A stretch of DNA of 64,000 nucleotides from a virus, in IMG/VR virus record IMGVR_UViG_3300023273_000760, positions 1 to 64,000 of that record; one strand, given 5' to 3'. The first letter of the stretch is position 1. Every line of letters begins with the position of its first letter. Both the position numbers and the translations under genes were made by a program. Under the pieces are notes generated by a model. It ran no database searches, was not told the DNA's origin, and worked only from the letters and a program-made list of their open reading frames with translations. Below, piece after piece: positions 6,919 to 14,695 of the stretch.

Positions 6919-9420
6919 TTATCCTACGCCCTTCAATAAGTTACCTTGTAACCCTTTTGTTGCATTAACTTGGGCTCTAAGTAATTTGTTTTGTTCTTTT
7001 AATAAATCTATCATGGCTAATGCTGTACTGTTATTTAATCCATCTGAACTACTAACAGCATTAGAAGTGGTTGATGCTGATGCCGTTGTTGTACTATATG
7101 ATTTTGGTTCTGGTTTATCAGTCAATGCTATATCAGTATCTTCTCTTTTTGGTACTGTAGAATTAAACGGTGAATCTGCAGGTACTGGAGTTTTGATTCC
7201 TGTTTCTCTTTCTTTTGCGTCAGCAATTTTGGCTTCTGCTTCATCTTCGTCATCGTCACTGCCAAACCAATTAAACGGATTGAGCATTTTAATTTTATCA
7301 TAAATCCAAGAAACAGTATCACCTACCCAGCCAAACATAGTCATAAATGTATCGTAAATGAACATAATTGGAGTCTTTACCTTATCCCATATCCAACCAA
7401 ATGTATCTCCAATCCATCCAAACATTGTCATAAATGTTGACGTATAAAAATTAATAACCGGTTGTATGAAATCCCAAAGTGCGCCTACCTTTTCAGATAT
7501 CCAACCAAATAGTGTTCCTAATGTATCTGAAAAGAATTGCATTGTAGGACCTACTAGATCCCATAACATTGCCGCTTTGTCACCAATCCAAGAAAATACT
7601 CCCGATAGTGCGTCCCAGGCTCCGCCGATCCATCCTTTAATCGTTTCCCATCCAAACATTGCCAGCAATGCCGCACCGATTGCGAGGAATGGTGCAATAA
7701 TTGGTGCTGTAATAAGAGTTAGTATACCTGCACCTAATCCAATTAAAATAGTATCAAGATTACTTACAATCGCATTCCAAATACCAGAACCAATGTTGCT
7801 TACTAAAGAATTAAATGCTGTTCCAATAGCAGGACTAATTTTTTTATCCCAAACACTGCTGACAAAATTCATAATCTTATCCGTTATGCCTTCACCTTCG
7901 GCCGCTGAATCCCATTCTTCTTTAAGGAATGCAACCGTATCTTTTGCCCAATTAATAAGTCCTGTTGTAAATTCTTCAATCTTACTAACACCGCTTTCAC
8001 CTTTATCAGTAAACCAACTAGTAAATTTTCCAACATTGTCAACTAGCATATCAAACAATCCGCTTTCAACAAACACTTCCATTAGTTTTGCTCTTGCGCC
8101 AGCAATAGCATTTTCAAAGTTTGCGATAGCCGATGTACCTTTGTTACGCTTTTTTTGTTCCTCTTCAATTTCTTTAAAGTTCATGTTGTTTACTTTACCA
8201 GACATTTTTCTATAATCTGAAATTCCACTTAGTAAACCATCAAACCCTTCTTTGCCCATCAACGCCTGAATTGCGGCTGGATCCATATCTTTAAGCATTG
8301 ATTCAATTTGAGGACCAAATGCGGCCATTTTCTTCATGTATTCTTCTTGACCGATAGCACCATCACCCATTTGTTTTTGGAGTTCAGCAAAACCTGGAAT
8401 AGTTGATGCAAGTTTTTGTGCTAGAGGAGTTTGAGCAACACCGTCTGCCATATCTTTAATAGCACCTGCAAAACCTGGTAATTCAGATTCAACAAATGCT
8501 AAGTTGTTTTCAAAGTTTTTAAGATTTTCACCTTCTAATCTCATTTTTAATGCAAGTACGTTTGCTTCAGCATTTTGTTGTTTTAATAATGCTTCTGCTT
8601 CTTTTCGTGATTTACCTGTTACTTTAGCAAGTCGATCAATCTGCATTAAATAATCTTCAGATCCTTTGCGTAATTGTGCATCACTCATGCCTTGCAGTCT
8701 ACCTTGACGTGCTTGCATTTCCATGTATTCAGCAGTATGTTGATTAAGTTGCTCCATGGTAAATCCCATTCCCATAAAGTCTTGTCTGCTATTTCTAATA
8801 TCTTTTGCTAATTGACCAAAACGTTTTGCACCTTCAGTAGTTGTGCCACCAAGTAACATCATCTTGTCAGCATTATTACCAACCATCTCAGCAAACGCAT
8901 CTAGACCTAGTCCTGCTTGTGATGCCGCCATATTCATTTCAACTACGTTGTTACCAAAACTTGCGCCTACATCACTTAAATCTCTAAAAGTATCTACATT
9001 TCCTTCAATAAATCCTGTTAGTCCGCCGAGTGCATTTCCAATAAGTGGAACGTGCTGAGCAAAGTCGCTCATTCTGTTGCCGCCGGCGATGAATTCCATT
9101 CCTAATGCGCCAGCAGAAGTTACAAGACCCATCAAGCCTTTAGTTAACAATCCAGTCGCACTGCTAAGTCCCTTACCAAAGTTGTCTAATAATGTTGTAG
9201 TGTTTGAAATATTCTCACCAAAATCTCCTAATTTAGGAGAAAGGCCAGTTAATACTTTACTAATGCCGCCAGGACCGCCGGCTCCACCAGCACCGCCTCC
9301 GCCACCGGCTCCACCACCGCCTTTTTTAAGGGCGCGAAGTATCTCTTTAAGAGTAGAGTCCTCAGCCGCGTTTTGTGCAACTACGTTACCAAATCCAGGA
9401 ATATCAACTGTTACTGCCAT
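6919..9420 (-). CDS. Probable tail tape-measure protein (gp29-like role)
   Basis: This 833-residue protein opens with a short globular region, then a Gly-rich linker (about residues 33-55), long predicted helices (about 60-470) and a hydrophobic segment near 560-590 (LDTILIGLGAGILTLITAPI). A series of Trp-rich imperfect repeats of about 30-35 residues built on MFGWIGD follows (about 595-715), and the tail is Ser/Thr-rich. Long helical content with hydrophobic segments is typical of tape-measure proteins, which set tail length and leave the tail at infection. It sits beside gp26 and gp20. Sequence identity to T4 gp29 is not evident to me, so the role rests on architecture and place. Confidence 0.75.
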   Translation of the reverse strand: MAVTVDIPGFGNVVAQNAAEDSTLKEILRALKKGGGGAGGGGGAGGAGGPGGISKVLTGLSPKLGDFGENISNTTTLLDNFGKGLSSATGLLTKGLMGLVTSAGALGMEFIAGGNRMSDFAQHVPLIGNALGGLTGFIEGNVDTFRDLSDVGASFGNNVVEMNMAASQAGLGLDAFAEMVGNNADKMMLLGGTTTEGAKRFGQLAKDIRNSRQDFMGMGFTMEQLNQHTAEYMEMQARQGRLQGMSDAQLRKGSEDYLMQIDRLAKVTGKSRKEAEALLKQQNAEANVLALKMRLEGENLKNFENNLAFVESELPGFAGAIKDMADGVAQTPLAQKLASTIPGFAELQKQMGDGAIGQEEYMKKMAAFGPQIESMLKDMDPAAIQALMGKEGFDGLLSGISDYRKMSGKVNNMNFKEIEEEQKKRNKGTSAIANFENAIAGARAKLMEVFVESGLFDMLVDNVGKFTSWFTDKGESGVSKIEEFTTGLINWAKDTVAFLKEEWDSAAEGEGITDKIMNFVSSVWDKKISPAIGTAFNSLVSNIGSGIWNAIVSNLDTILIGLGAGILTLITAPIIAPFLAIGAALLAMFGWETIKGWIGGAWDALSGVFSWIGDKAAMLWDLVGPTMQFFSDTLGTLFGWISEKVGALWDFIQPVINFYTSTFMTMFGWIGDTFGWIWDKVKTPIMFIYDTFMTMFGWVGDTVSWIYDKIKMLNPFNWFGSDDDEDEAEAKIADAKERETGIKTPVPADSPFNSTVPKREDTDIALTDKPEPKSYSTTTASASTTSNAVSSSDGLNNSTALAMIDLLKEQNKLLRAQVNATKGLQGNLLKGVG

Positions 9421-9487: not shown

Positions 9488-10417
9488 ATGGCAGAAAATA
9501 ATGAAATTGGTAGTTCTATTCAGTCGGGAATTTCAACAGAACTTCCTAAAGGACCTATCAATGCTAACCCGTTAGCAAAACATTTTAGACAGCCTAAAAT
9601 TTATATTAGATTACCATCTGGTGGCAAATACTGGAAACGTGGTTCTTTAGAAGTTACTGAAAGCGGAGAATATCCTGTTTATTCAATGACTGCTAAGGAC
9701 GAACTAGTTTTAAAGACTCCAGATGCTTTAATGAACGGTGAATCAACAGCAACAATGATGTCTAGTTGTATTCCTCATATTAAAAATGCTTTTGATTGCC
9801 CTAGTATTGATCTTGATACAATTTTAGTTGCTATTAGAATTGCAACGTTTGGCGAAAGACTGACTATAACATCAAAAGTTCCAAATACCGAACTCACTAA
9901 AGACTTTGATATTAATCTAGTTGAATTATTAGATCGACTTCAACAGCGCGAGTATCCGGAAAAGTTTACTATTGATGATTTTACATTTACAATGGAACCT
10001 ACAACATATAAGTTGTTTACTGATATGTCGTTATTAAGATTTGAAGAACAACGTAAGTTACAACAAATTCAAGGTAATGATAAAATGGATGATAAAGAGA
10101 AATTAAAATTGTTTAATGCATCTTTTTCAAAACTTACTAATATTGCAGTTGACTTAGTAATTTCACAAATTAAAAGTGTTCAGTATCTTAGTGATCAGCC
10201 TGTTACAGATAAGTCCCATATTAAAGACTTTTTTGAAAACGTTGAAGGAACATTGTACGAAAGAATCCAAAAGTACATCGAAGAATTAAAAGAGGAATTT
10301 ACTATTCCAGACTTTGATGTAACTGCTACCCCAGAAGAAATTGAGGCAGGTGCACCTGAAACTTATAAAGTTCCAGTGTCATTTGATCAATCAAATTTTT
10401 TCGCACGTCAATTGTAA
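9488..10417 (+). CDS. gp26: Baseplate hub/tail assembly protein (T4 gp26-type)
   Basis: This 309-residue protein has the conserved N-terminal segment KIYIRLPSGGKYW followed by LTAKDELVLKTPDALMNGES-like text, as seen in the T4 baseplate (gp26/gp51) family. In T4 these are assembly factors of the central baseplate hub. In many tailed phages the equivalent genes beside the tape-measure gene encode tape-measure chaperones. The gene is divergent from the tape measure and has its own late promoter. The last 15 nt before its stop contain a slippery heptamer (T TTT TTC), and a second frame continues beyond the stop. This suggests that a longer fusion of about 381 residues is also made. Confidence 0.85.
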   Translation: MAENNEIGSSIQSGISTELPKGPINANPLAKHFRQPKIYIRLPSGGKYWKRGSLEVTESGEYPVYSMTAKDELVLKTPDALMNGESTATMMSSCIPHIKNAFDCPSIDLDTILVAIRIATFGERLTITSKVPNTELTKDFDINLVELLDRLQQREYPEKFTIDDFTFTMEPTTYKLFTDMSLLRFEEQRKLQQIQGNDKMDDKEKLKLFNASFSKLTNIAVDLVISQIKSVQYLSDQPVTDKSHIKDFFENVEGTLYERIQKYIEELKEEFTIPDFDVTATPEEIEAGAPETYKVPVSFDQSNFFARQL

Positions 10418-10632
10418 GCCAGCCTCTTGACGAAATCCTTCGTAGAACTGAAGCATTAGAAAACGAACAACGGCAAATTAAATACGATATGCTTAAAATT
10501 GTATGGTATATGCGAGGTGGTGTATCGTTAACAGAAGCCTATGATATGGGTCCAGAGGATCGTAAAATTATAGGTAAGATTGTTGAAGAAAATTTAGAAA
10601 CTACTAAAACTTCTAAACTACCATTCTTTTAA
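10387..10632 (+). CDS. gp51-like domain in the -1 frame, no usual start codon
   Basis: This open frame runs from just after a TGA (10384-10386) to a TAA (10630-10632) and encodes IVSQPLDEILRRTEALENEQ, then KIVWYMRGGVSLTEAYDMG, then SKLPFF. It is clearly coding. No ATG, GTG or TTG occurs before the internal ATG at 10489, which would discard the first conserved helix. The frame is -1 relative to gp26. By position it corresponds to T4 gene 51, the hub assembly catalyst that follows gene 26. Expression by -1 frameshifting from gp26 is the most economical explanation. Initiation at the ATT at 10411, or a short form from 10489, is possible. The similarity to gp51 is inferred from synteny. Confidence 0.75.
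   Translation, partial: SIKFFRTSIVSQPLDEILRRTEALENEQRQIKYDMLKIVWYMRGGVSLTEAYDMGPEDRKIIGKIVEENLETTKTSKLPFF
10396..10432 (+). promoter_or_regulatory. Probable -1 frameshift signal: slippery heptamer plus hairpin
   Basis: In the gp26 frame, 10396-10402 reads T TTT TTC, a standard X-XXY-YYZ slippery heptamer. Three bases downstream, CGTCAA (10406-10411) can pair with TTGACG (10427-10432), making a 6-bp stem whose loop contains the gp26 stop codon. Slipping back one base moves ribosomes into the gp51-like frame. The 3-nt spacer is shorter than usual. Confidence 0.6.
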
Positions 10633-10653
10633 AATAAAAAGTTTGTTAAAATA

Positions 10654-10682
10654 AAATAGGGCTCGAAAGGCCCTATTTTTTT
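10654..10682. terminator. Bidirectional terminator between converging genes
   Basis: A 9-bp stem (AAATAGGGC with GCCCTATTT) has a 7-nt loop and a run of T on the plus side and of A on the other side. It can end both the gp26/gp51 transcript and the opposing minus-strand gene, whose stop codon touches its right edge. Confidence 0.8.
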
Positions 10683-12909
10683 ATCTGAATCGTTCGCCTG
10701 GTCGTGTAGTTCTTGCTGGTGCCGCTGGAGTTGCTCCTGCCGCCGCTTTACTTGTCATTGTTTTTGTAACTTGTGCTTGTTTAGTTCCTGCTTTAACACC
10801 TGGTGCTGTTAATTGATCTTTTACAAGTTTAGCAACATTTGCTTTTGTAATCTCTTTAGCAAGTTCTTCAAGGTCTGGTCTACCTAATCCTTTTGTATCA
10901 GCACTTGCTGATTTACCAGTTGCCATGTTTACCCATGATTGACCTAACCAAATATGATCTTGTCCGTTTGCTTGTCTAACAAGTCCAATATTTTTACCGT
11001 CTCTATTTGCTTCAATGGCTCCGTCTACTGCTGGATTTTTAGGATCAACTAGTTTAGCATCACCTTTAACCCATTTAGCAATTTCTTCATCACTTGCACG
11101 TCTTTCGCCTGCTGATGCGCCTGCATTGCCTGCTGATGCGCCTGCACTACCACTTGCACCCTGACCACCGCTTGTTGACGCTGTATCAGCGTTAGAACCG
11201 CCATCTGCTTGTGTTGTATTAGTTCCTGCATCACTTTTAGCGTCACCACCTGTTCCACTAGCGCCACCTTTAGCGTCACCACCTGTTACACCAGCGCCAC
11301 CTTTAGCATCGCCGCCTGTTCCACCAGTTTCGCTATCTGCTGTTTTTCCTGCACTAGCGGCAGGTGCTGGTAAATCTACTTTTTGTTCTTGACCAATTGA
11401 TTTAATATCATCTGAGGATAGACCTGCATCTGCTAGTATGTTTGCAATACTACCTGCATCAGTAGGCTCTCCCATTTTTTTCCATGACTTGTTTAGTTTG
11501 TTAGCAGTAACTTTATTACCTAAGTCTTTACCAACTTGCTTAACACCTGCGGCCGCTTTGCCTGCCGCGCCTTTAACTGCGCCACCAACTGCACTTGCCG
11601 CTTTGCCTAATCCGCGTTTCATCTTTGCGCCAAGCGAGTTTGGATTGTCTAATGGTAATTCACCTTGTGCTGGATCTGCTTCTGCAATATACTGTTCTAA
11701 TAGATATTTGTAAGAAGTTTCGTAATCAATTGACTCTTCTGCTTTTGCTCCGCCGCCTTGTAAATCAAGTTCACCTTGTTCTGGTTCTACTTCTTCGCCG
11801 CCAACTTTGATAGGTGTTTGCTTACCTGAGGCTTGTACACTACCTTGTGCCGCCGCCGCAATGGCGCTGTTTGCCATTTCTAAGTTACTTAAGAATTGAT
11901 CGTTTGCTACCGCAACTGCTTTTGAAATTTCATTTGAAAGATTCATGTCCGCAATGAATTCTGCCTTGTCAAAGGTCTTTGCAAATGTCCATAATTCGTT
12001 AAATGCATTTATGCCTTCTGGACTATTGCTGGTTCCGCCAGCAGTTGCATCTCTCATCACGTCAAGTAGTCTTGTAAATTCTCCCACTTGATCTTCTGGA
12101 ATAACCATAGATCCTAGTTCTTTGACACTGCTGAATCCGGGCACTTCAAATGTTTTTGTAAATCCTACTTCAAGTGTAGTGAGTCCTGGTGCCTTATCAT
12201 AAGGAATTGCATCGTATCTTAATCCTTCTAACCAGTCTCCAATGCCGTCTAATGCCCAACCTGCAATAGCACCGTATGCGGCTGTTTTAATTGACTTACC
12301 AACTGCACTTGAAAGTTTTTCGCCTTGCAATAATTCTTTTGTTGAACGTAGTATTAAACCTGCGGCCGCACCACCTACTGGACCACCGGCAAATGCCGCA
12401 ATCGCTGTTAAGATACCAACTGCTAAACTTGCTTTGCCTGGATTTTCTTTTGCCCAATCACTTACTTTTTGTATGCCTTGTACAATTTTACTGTCTTTGT
12501 TGTTTGCTGTAATTTGTTTTTTAAGATCTTCAAACTTAGCATCAGCGTTTTTAATAGGACCTGCATTTTGTGCCATGCGTCCAAGTTCATTAATTTTAGC
12601 ATCAACCTTTTTAGCAATGTCCACAGGAAGTTTAGCGGCCGCCGCAACACCAGCGCCTACTTTGCCTGCTATTGTTTTATTATCTCCACCGGCCATTGCA
12701 CGTTGTTCAGCACCTTGGAATATAGCATTAATTTGATCAGCAGTTAGTTCTGCTTCTGCAAGTTTAACGTATTCTTCAAGTAGGGGCCAAAGTTCGCGTT
12801 CCCATCTATTAAGATAAATCTTTTGAGTTTCAGTTAGTGTTTGATATGAACTTTCAGTTAATATCTGTGCTGTTCTATTGTTAGGTTTGTTAATTTCGTT
12901 TAAATTCAT
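10681..12909 (-). CDS. Gly/Ala-rich putative virion-internal protein, 742 aa
   Basis: The family is not recognised with certainty. The N-terminus MNLNEINKPNN leads to two L-T-E tripeptides (residues 17-19 and 25-27), which fit the gp21 cleavage consensus. A helical region follows, then a small-residue hydrophobic stretch near 160-240 (LAVGILTAIAAFAGGPVGGA) that could insert into a membrane. The middle is of mixed composition. A low-complexity tract repeats GGDAKGGA-type units (about 530-600), and the C-terminal part is globular (LVRQANGQDHIWLGQSWVNM). A head-packaged protein processed by gp21 and ejected with the DNA would fit these features. The start overlaps the stop of the upstream gene (TAATG), so the two are coupled. 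Confidence 0.55.
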   Translation of the reverse strand: MNLNEINKPNNRTAQILTESSYQTLTETQKIYLNRWERELWPLLEEYVKLAEAELTADQINAIFQGAEQRAMAGGDNKTIAGKVGAGVAAAAKLPVDIAKKVDAKINELGRMAQNAGPIKNADAKFEDLKKQITANNKDSKIVQGIQKVSDWAKENPGKASLAVGILTAIAAFAGGPVGGAAAGLILRSTKELLQGEKLSSAVGKSIKTAAYGAIAGWALDGIGDWLEGLRYDAIPYDKAPGLTTLEVGFTKTFEVPGFSSVKELGSMVIPEDQVGEFTRLLDVMRDATAGGTSNSPEGINAFNELWTFAKTFDKAEFIADMNLSNEISKAVAVANDQFLSNLEMANSAIAAAAQGSVQASGKQTPIKVGGEEVEPEQGELDLQGGGAKAEESIDYETSYKYLLEQYIAEADPAQGELPLDNPNSLGAKMKRGLGKAASAVGGAVKGAAGKAAAGVKQVGKDLGNKVTANKLNKSWKKMGEPTDAGSIANILADAGLSSDDIKSIGQEQKVDLPAPAASAGKTADSETGGTGGDAKGGAGVTGGDAKGGASGTGGDAKSDAGTNTTQADGGSNADTASTSGGQGASGSAGASAGNAGASAGERRASDEEIAKWVKGDAKLVDPKNPAVDGAIEANRDGKNIGLVRQANGQDHIWLGQSWVNMATGKSASADTKGLGRPDLEELAKEITKANVAKLVKDQLTAPGVKAGTKQAQVTKTMTSKAAAGATPAAPARTTRPGERFR

Positions 12910-13529
12910 TATATCATACTCGCTAATCGTTTTTTATCTGCATCATTTAACAAATCTAATTGAGACTGTATACTTGCTGGAATTTCACTTGCTGGACCTG
13001 CCGCACTACCGTTTGCTGTTGGAGGTGCTTTACCATCAGGTGCTGTTGAACTACCTGTATCTGTTGATGCTCCAGTTGTTCCGCCTTTTGCACCTTGTTG
13101 TGCGCCAGCACCTGGTGCAGGTGAATCGCCAGTGCCAGTTGGAGCAGGTGTTGCACCACCTCCAACTTTTTTAGAATCTTGTACAACTTTTAATAGGATT
13201 TTGTCTAGCATGGCCTTGTTTAGTTGTCCTGTGCCAACATTGTTGTCAACAGCCTGTTCAGGATATTTTTTGCTTTTAAGCCAAGCACTAAGATCAGTAG
13301 CATCAAACTTGCTAATATTTTGTCCTGTTTGACCCATGTAGTTTTGGAATTCTCCACGAAGTTTATTTGCTTCGTCACCGGTATCAACTTGACCTGCGAT
13401 ACCCATAGCAGTGTCTTTAGCACCTACTTTTGCTAGTGCTTTAGCACCAAATTTCTTTAAACCTTGCTTAATAGCACCTACAGGTGCTTCGGAAACAGGT
13501 TTTTTAACAGCAATCTCGTTTATTTTCAT
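12909..13529 (-). CDS. Gly/Ala/Pro-rich putative virion protein, 206 aa
   Basis: This 206-residue protein starts MKINEIAVKKPVSE, similar to the N-terminus of the next gene (MNLNEI). It has a helical N-terminal half, a long Gly/Ala/Thr/Pro linker (residues about 125-180) and a short conserved-looking C-terminal helix (IQSQLDLLNDADKKRLASMI). I do not recognise a named family. The I-N-E near the N-terminus and the shared architecture suggest that both products are virion components, perhaps capsid-targeted. A late promoter lies 28 nt upstream with a GATTAGGATTTTGAA leader, and the downstream gene overlaps by TAATG. Confidence 0.55.
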   Translation of the reverse strand: MKINEIAVKKPVSEAPVGAIKQGLKKFGAKALAKVGAKDTAMGIAGQVDTGDEANKLRGEFQNYMGQTGQNISKFDATDLSAWLKSKKYPEQAVDNNVGTGQLNKAMLDKILLKVVQDSKKVGGGATPAPTGTGDSPAPGAGAQQGAKGGTTGASTDTGSSTAPDGKAPPTANGSAAGPASEIPASIQSQLDLLNDADKKRLASMI

Positions 13530-14254: not shown

Positions 14255-14695
14255 CTATATCTTTGCCTTGATGCTATGTTCTAGCAATGCCTGTCGTAAT
14301 TTGTCTGAACCGCCAACTCTAACATTAATAATACCGTTGTAATAATCATCTCTCTCTAATACACGGCGGTCAAACTGTTCTCGTGCCTCTATGTAGGACA
14401 TTTCGCCCCTACCTTTACATAGGTATAATATTTCTCTTGTGAAGTTTTCTGGACCTAGTGCTTGTACATCAGCATTAAGACGATCTGATGAACCCCAATA
14501 GTCCTTCCAATCGCTTTCCTTAGTGCCTCTGCGTTTATTCTTTTTGCCTTTGAGTGGTGGCTTTGTGGTTTTAAATTTGGCTAGTTTCTTGCCTATATAC
14601 TTTTGCCCAGTGGTTGTATTTGTGATTAGATAAACAAATCCTTCATACTCGTCTGGTATAGTGTTTATCTGTTGTCCTTTGTAAGTCCAGTCCAT
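14255..14695 (-). CDS. GIY-YIG endonuclease (SegE-like)
   Basis: This 146-residue protein carries the GIY-YIG nuclease signature as GFVYLI (residues 19-24) and KYIGKK (32-37). A basic linker (KKNKRRGTKESDWKDYWGSS) and the later helix EAREQFDRRVLE supply the expected Arg/Glu region, and a terminal YYNGIINVRVGG supplies the conserved Asn. In T4-like phages such stand-alone proteins (Seg type) act as homing endonucleases that cut sequence-specifically and spread into related phages. It lies between the RNA-like region and a small gene linked to gp46, with no sign of a host-gene interruption. Confidence 0.8.
   Translation of the reverse strand: MDWTYKGQQINTIPDEYEGFVYLITNTTTGQKYIGKKLAKFKTTKPPLKGKKNKRRGTKESDWKDYWGSSDRLNADVQALGPENFTREILYLCKGRGEMSYIEAREQFDRRVLERDDYYNGIINVRVGGSDKLRQALLEHSIKAKI

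Follow-up and report, generated by a model that had tools for sequence, protein, structure and literature searches.

An invariant slippery heptamer near the 3′ terminus of a gp26-like gene suggests a -1 frameshifted tail assembly chaperone in a T4-like phage lineage

How many proteins are produced from the gp26-like gene at positions 9488-10417 (+) of the window, by which we mean the whole 64,000-nucleotide stretch of viral DNA that was analysed? The 3′ end of this ORF, read directly, is TCA AAT TTT TTC GCA CGT CAA TTG TAA, and the zero-frame stop TAA at 10415-10417 (+) ends a short form of 309 aa. The zero frame splits the T-rich segment into T (10396), TTT (10397-10399) and TTC (10400-10402), which is the pattern X XXY YYZ. 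Because the last codons of the gene lie in that register, T TTT TTC at 10396-10402 (+) represents a textbook -1 slip site. A second heptamer, A AAT TTT at 10393-10399 (+), overlaps the first and is kept in part of the lineage, and no other in-frame TTTTTTC was found in the five window ORFs that were checked. In the -1 frame, an open stretch begins at 10387, just past a TGA at 10384-10386, and runs to a stop at 10630-10632; its earliest ATG, GTG or TTG is the ATG at 10489. If ribosomes slipped at the heptamer, base 10402 would be read twice, and a -1 extension of 76 codons and a stop (10402-10632, +) would be joined to 305 upstream residues to give a predicted long form of 381 aa. The initial annotation had placed the heptamer in the overlap at the end of gp26, had found no start near the beginning of the -1 frame, and had counted 76 codons after the slip and a 381-residue product. 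All of its coordinates check out, as do the register and the arithmetic, and the 381-residue product is a prediction from the sequence. A sequencing error (an indel) as the source of the two frames was also considered and rejected. Such an indel is unlikely because the gene is identical in two contigs from other samples (L006 and L007) and because both frames are kept in identical and divergent relatives alike.

The 309-aa protein matched PF12322 (T4_baseplate) with an E-value of 4.9e-9 and 36.6 bits over residues 61-269, compared with a curated Pfam cut-off of 24.5, and it matched phrog_150 with an E-value of 1.4e-10. According to these profile matches, the gene at 9488-10417 is a member of the T4 gp26/gp51 family. 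The AF2 model of the short form (pLDDT 89) matched predicted T4-like "baseplate hub assembly" proteins in a fold search, and a search of the PDB by fold and by sequence found no relative of the gp26 domain. Proteins of approximately 490-690 aa from the giant phages Erwinia Special G, phiEaH2 and Ralstonia RSF1 have partly the same predicted fold, with modest TM-scores, and these models suggest that they are possibly unrecognised chaperones.

The gene neighbourhood agrees with the earlier remark that in many tailed phages such chaperones are encoded beside the tape-measure gene. The divergent neighbour at 6919-9420 (-) matched phrog_58 (E 1.2e-17), and a tape-measure homologue was located divergently upstream in 75 of the 77 loci with enough sequence; the next gene encodes a T4-type portal (PF07230, 4.8e-104). 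In phi-Grn1, a phage of the KVP40 type, the first long gene past the gp26 extension (L183 3498-5468) matched phrog_58 at 7e-10, and by this match its layout is the classical chaperone/tape-measure order. Other features of the window include a GIY-YIG endonuclease gene of the SegE type at 14255-14695 (-) (PF19835, 1.2e-35) beside a gp46-like AAA gene, and two adjacent ORFs at 10681-12909 and 12909-13529 (-), whose Ala/Gly/Thr-rich products (742 and 206 aa) matched nothing in Pfam or PHROG. After the -1 stop, a hairpin and T run at 10653-10679 (+) form a putative intrinsic terminator, assigned by consensus match only.

Relatives were collected by a protein-only search of viral contigs that was blind to the slip site, which yielded 80 loci, and a phage collection added distant isolates, of which five were fetched. 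The analysable set consisted of the 84 sequences that reach the stop, the window included. TTTTTTC occurs in frame, 10-40 bases 5′ of the stop, in 84/84 analysable and 66/66 non-redundant sequences, which establishes the invariance of the slip site in a set where protein identity falls to about 25%. Across the 66 non-redundant sequences, no codon pair of the gene other than TTT TTC is fully invariant, and the top-codon share at the median conserved residue is 0.58. Elsewhere in the gene, TTC accounts for 16% of the Phe codons. Given x-F-F and the local codon usage, the chance of T TTT TTC is about 0.09 per independent sequence, and because the loci are related, the 66 sequences do not amount to 66 independent trials. 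In addition, the two slip-site Phe residues are among the ten invariant columns of a 52-sequence protein alignment. An alignment of related genomes had been proposed at the outset, and with the heptamer in frame throughout and the extension conserved, its outcome supports frameshifting.

Conservation of the extension spans its full length and begins with the first codon past the slip, 5′ of any start. Its length is near-constant, with 76 aa in nearly all relatives, and no stops were found in the -1 frame of the relatives. Among 36 aligned sequences, Arg1 (directly after the slip), W35, M37, R38, G39, R54 and N64 are invariant, and the mean top-residue share is 0.56 for residues 1-9, 0.52 for residues 10-29 and 0.66 for the rest. 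Differences at positions 1/2/3 of the -1-frame codons number 791/363/1951, which represents a coding signature. No convincing Pfam or PHROG match was found for the extension of the window lineage. The annotated downstream ORFs of ACG-2014a (L188 3301-3396) and Atu_ph07 (L004 3430-3552) begin at late internal starts and therefore truncate the conserved extension; these ORFs appear to be artefacts that the frameshift introduced into the annotation.

Programmed slip sites were also examined for stimulatory elements. The 6-bp complementarity between CGTCAA (10406-10411) and TTGACG (10427-10432) that had been reported downstream of the heptamer (10406-10432, +) does exist, but a role as stimulator is not supported. 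The stability of this hairpin corresponds to a z of -0.17, with 79/200 shuffles folding at least as well, and all six pairs are kept in only 2/60 distinct homologues. At the hairpin positions, 49% of the cells are paired in the window lineage, which is above shuffles and far from a kept helix. Because its stability is at shuffle level, its conservation is limited to these two homologues and no common fold was found downstream of the slip site in the window lineage, the hairpin was rejected as a conserved stimulator. For the lineage overall, the sequence downstream of the slip folds slightly more stably (mean z -1.2), by differing stems, and neither a conserved downstream hairpin nor an upstream SD-like element in the manner of dnaX was found there. 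In the cyanophage-type loci, a 10-bp hairpin begins 5 bases past the heptamer, with a mean z of -3.2 versus -0.4 for controls and 92.8% of the cells paired. Its covariation is weak, with one pair showing double changes, and the region is also coding. An SD-like GAGGG is located about 10 bases 5′ of the heptamer in these loci, and the Glu of this element is encoded by GAG in 75/78 of them versus 27% GAG overall. This dnaX-like layout, observed in L088-L168 within a segment covering 15 bases 5′ and 44 bases 3′ of TTTTTTC, is absent in the window lineage.

In a rival reading, the downstream frame is an independent small gene, whose translation would depend either on ribosomes that terminate and reinitiate close to the gp26 stop or on an internal or unusual start codon such as ATT 10411 or ATG 10489. 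Start codons at or near the gp26 stop are indeed present in 121Q and phi-Grn1 (TAATG) and in Phosso (ATG), and Vibrio D531, Vibrio VP-1 and Cygsa01 carry TAATG without a slip site. Moreover, at 36/84 loci the -1 frame contains an ATG somewhere from its opening to a point about 25 codons beyond the slip, so reinitiation could add product there. However, the window and 38 others (39/84 loci) have no start codon in that same stretch, and the heptamer is kept in all relatives of the window lineage even where an ATG is present. Furthermore, the segment 5′ of ATG 10489 is also conserved, and an internal start at that position would therefore lose 29 conserved residues, the invariant Arg1 included. 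Homologues with an ATG and no slip site had been named beforehand as telling against frameshifting; distant ones do exist, but the number of close relatives without the slip site is zero. We consider a separate small gene to be quite improbable.

The T run might instead act on RNA polymerase, in which case the part of the mRNA with an altered number of U would encode the long form. T or A runs can cause such slippage, and the sequence by itself separates transcriptional from ribosomal slippage incompletely. However, six T is a short run for slippage during transcription. The run also ends in C and fits the X XXY YYZ register precisely in all members of the lineage, and the cyanophage sites are flanked by the SD-like GAGGG and the hairpin, as are ribosomal sites. 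In our judgement, polymerase slippage is even less probable than a separate gene. It might finally be argued that the -1 frame is open by chance or belongs to a broken gene and that TTTTTTC merely encodes Phe-Phe, considering that low-GC sequence carries T runs and that TTTTTTC occurs nine times on the + strand of the window. This argument is refuted by the protein-level conservation of a frame of near-constant length in the 36 aligned relatives and by slip codons that are invariant despite biased codon usage, and we give it next to no weight.

On the comparative evidence, we consider it highly probable that this locus of the gp26/gp51 family encodes a tail assembly (tape-measure) chaperone, with a short form and a -1 frameshifted long form. 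The same evidence supports the earlier suggestion that a lambda-like -1 frameshift scheme may operate in a T4-like phage. The majority of ribosomes would stop at TAA 10415 and release the 309-residue short form. A minority would slip by -1 on T TTT TTC, where both tRNA-Phe would re-pair from TTT TTC to TTT TTT, and these ribosomes would continue to 10632 and produce the 381-residue long form. If the two products act as lambda gpG and gpGT do, the part that they share would coat the tape-measure protein and the extension would recruit the tail tube. The sequences themselves show the family membership, the slip site with its invariance, the conserved extension and the tape-measure neighbour; that ribosomes slip, how often they do so and what the products do as chaperones are what we infer.

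Full-length matches to PF12322 were obtained for T4 gp26 (8.8e-64) and T4 gp51 (3.9e-52), whose genes lie on opposite strands, and T4 gp51 consists of a gp26-like domain and an extra C-terminal tail. By this sequence relationship, the two are paralogues, one short and one long, and T4 therefore has two genes where the frameshift phages have one. The usual view of 26 and 51 as simply separate genes, on which the initial annotation drew, is thus out of date. In the tree, T4 gp26 and gp51 form two sister clades (94/77) beside the KVP40-type frameshift gene (82/86); this topology, with moderate support, is consistent with one duplication giving T4 26/51. In one T4-type genome (L177 2501-3255), two ORFs, 120 and 123 aa long, divide the gp51 frame between them.

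In cyanophage P-SSM2, the ORF called "gp51" encodes 58 aa and follows AGT TTT TTC GTA TAA in the -1 frame, and T TTT TTC lies exactly 10 bases 5′ of the stop in 78/78 analysable cyanophage-type loci. Judging from these sequences, the cyanophage-type "gp51" ORF is the -1 extension of gp26. When the cyanophage-type extension was compared with the gp51 tail, hhalign gave a probability of 95.8, an E-value of 7e-9 and a score of 43, and 30 shuffles scored at most 15. The extension of the window lineage scored 14-16 against the same tail, no better than 30 shuffles, with SLTEAYDMGPEDR aligned to SLTELENMMPWER. The label "gp51-like" is therefore significant, by profile comparison, for the cyanophage/KVP40-type extension and only suggestive in the window lineage, to which it had been applied.

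Other relatives have different architectures. At the gp26 stop of L182, L184 and L187 (Vibrio D531, Ackermannviridae VP-1 and Pseudomonas Cygsa01), the TAATG overlap leads into a -1 ORF, which points to coupled reinitiation of a putative separate small protein. Neither heptamer nor TAATG is present in phiA8-29, and the four relatives without the slip site cluster in the tree (95/91). Variants of the heptamer are TTTTTTG in Rhizobium RHph_I1_9 and TTTTTTT in Melnitz-3. The frameshift would be the route of the window lineage, jumbo phages, cyanophages and KVP40-type phages; TAATG would be that of D531, VP-1 and Cygsa01; and duplication would be that of T4 26/51. We lean slightly towards the view that this is one family with three interchangeable routes to short and long forms (-1 frameshift, TAATG-coupled small gene and duplication) and that the T4 pair derived from a frameshift gene.

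According to a passage of a 2016 review, lambda-type chaperone frameshifting is widely conserved and T4 is listed as an exception (PMC5009743), and a passage of a T4 tail assembly review classes gp26 and gp51 as chaperones of hub assembly (PMC3004832). Two later papers, in the passages concerned, attribute the identification of T4-like tail assembly chaperones to Vladimirov, Gautam & Davidson (2022, Virology 566:9), one citing that study on some T4-like phages whose short and long forms have separate genes (PMC10885494) and the other on T4-like chaperone genes with poly-T slip signals (PMC12846349). In the Abraxas record, gp26, gp51 and gp28 are named "tape measure protein assembly chaperone". 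Because of these reports and this annotation, the mechanism and the family were already known, and the window lineage is, as far as we have checked, a new member. The loci analysed here indicate that many T4-like lineages retain the chaperone frameshift. Therefore, most of the small "gp51" ORFs in the records of these lineages would be parts of a frameshifted protein, and their annotation could be changed to that of joined genes. P-SSM2, 121Q and PA5oct are cultured phages with directly testable sites, and the T4 gp26/gp51 pair can be read as a duplicated version of the single gene.

The window gene resembles lambda gpG/gpGT in its in-register X XXY YYZ near the end of the first frame, its conserved -1 extension and its adjacent tape-measure gene. 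However, it has no demonstrated sequence relation to gpG, its two forms are predictions from the sequence, its tape-measure gene is divergent rather than downstream, and its heptamer is T TTT TTC. Phage Adele (Vandenendeviridae/Andersonviridae) also has a poly-T slip site in a contractile-tail chaperone gene, although the motif described in that passage is GTTTTT (PMC12846349); the likeness noted here is in the slip site. T4 gp26 and gp51 share the PF12322 domain with the window protein, but T4 has two divergent genes where the window lineage has one gene with a slip site, and the gp51 tail has no significant similarity to the lineage's extension. The gp26-like proteins of the jumbo phages 121Q, PA5oct, Atu_ph07, Phosso and pEa_SNUABM_19 are 25-30% identical to the window protein, and some have an ATG near the stop, but all have the in-frame TTTTTTC and a -1 extension. 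Although the extension of P-SSM2 and its relatives is approximately 60 aa long and homologous to the T4 gp51 tail, and although these cyanophages have their own stable hairpin and SD-like element, both lacking in the window lineage, they carry an identical T TTT TTC where gp26 ends, followed by a -1 extension annotated as gp51.
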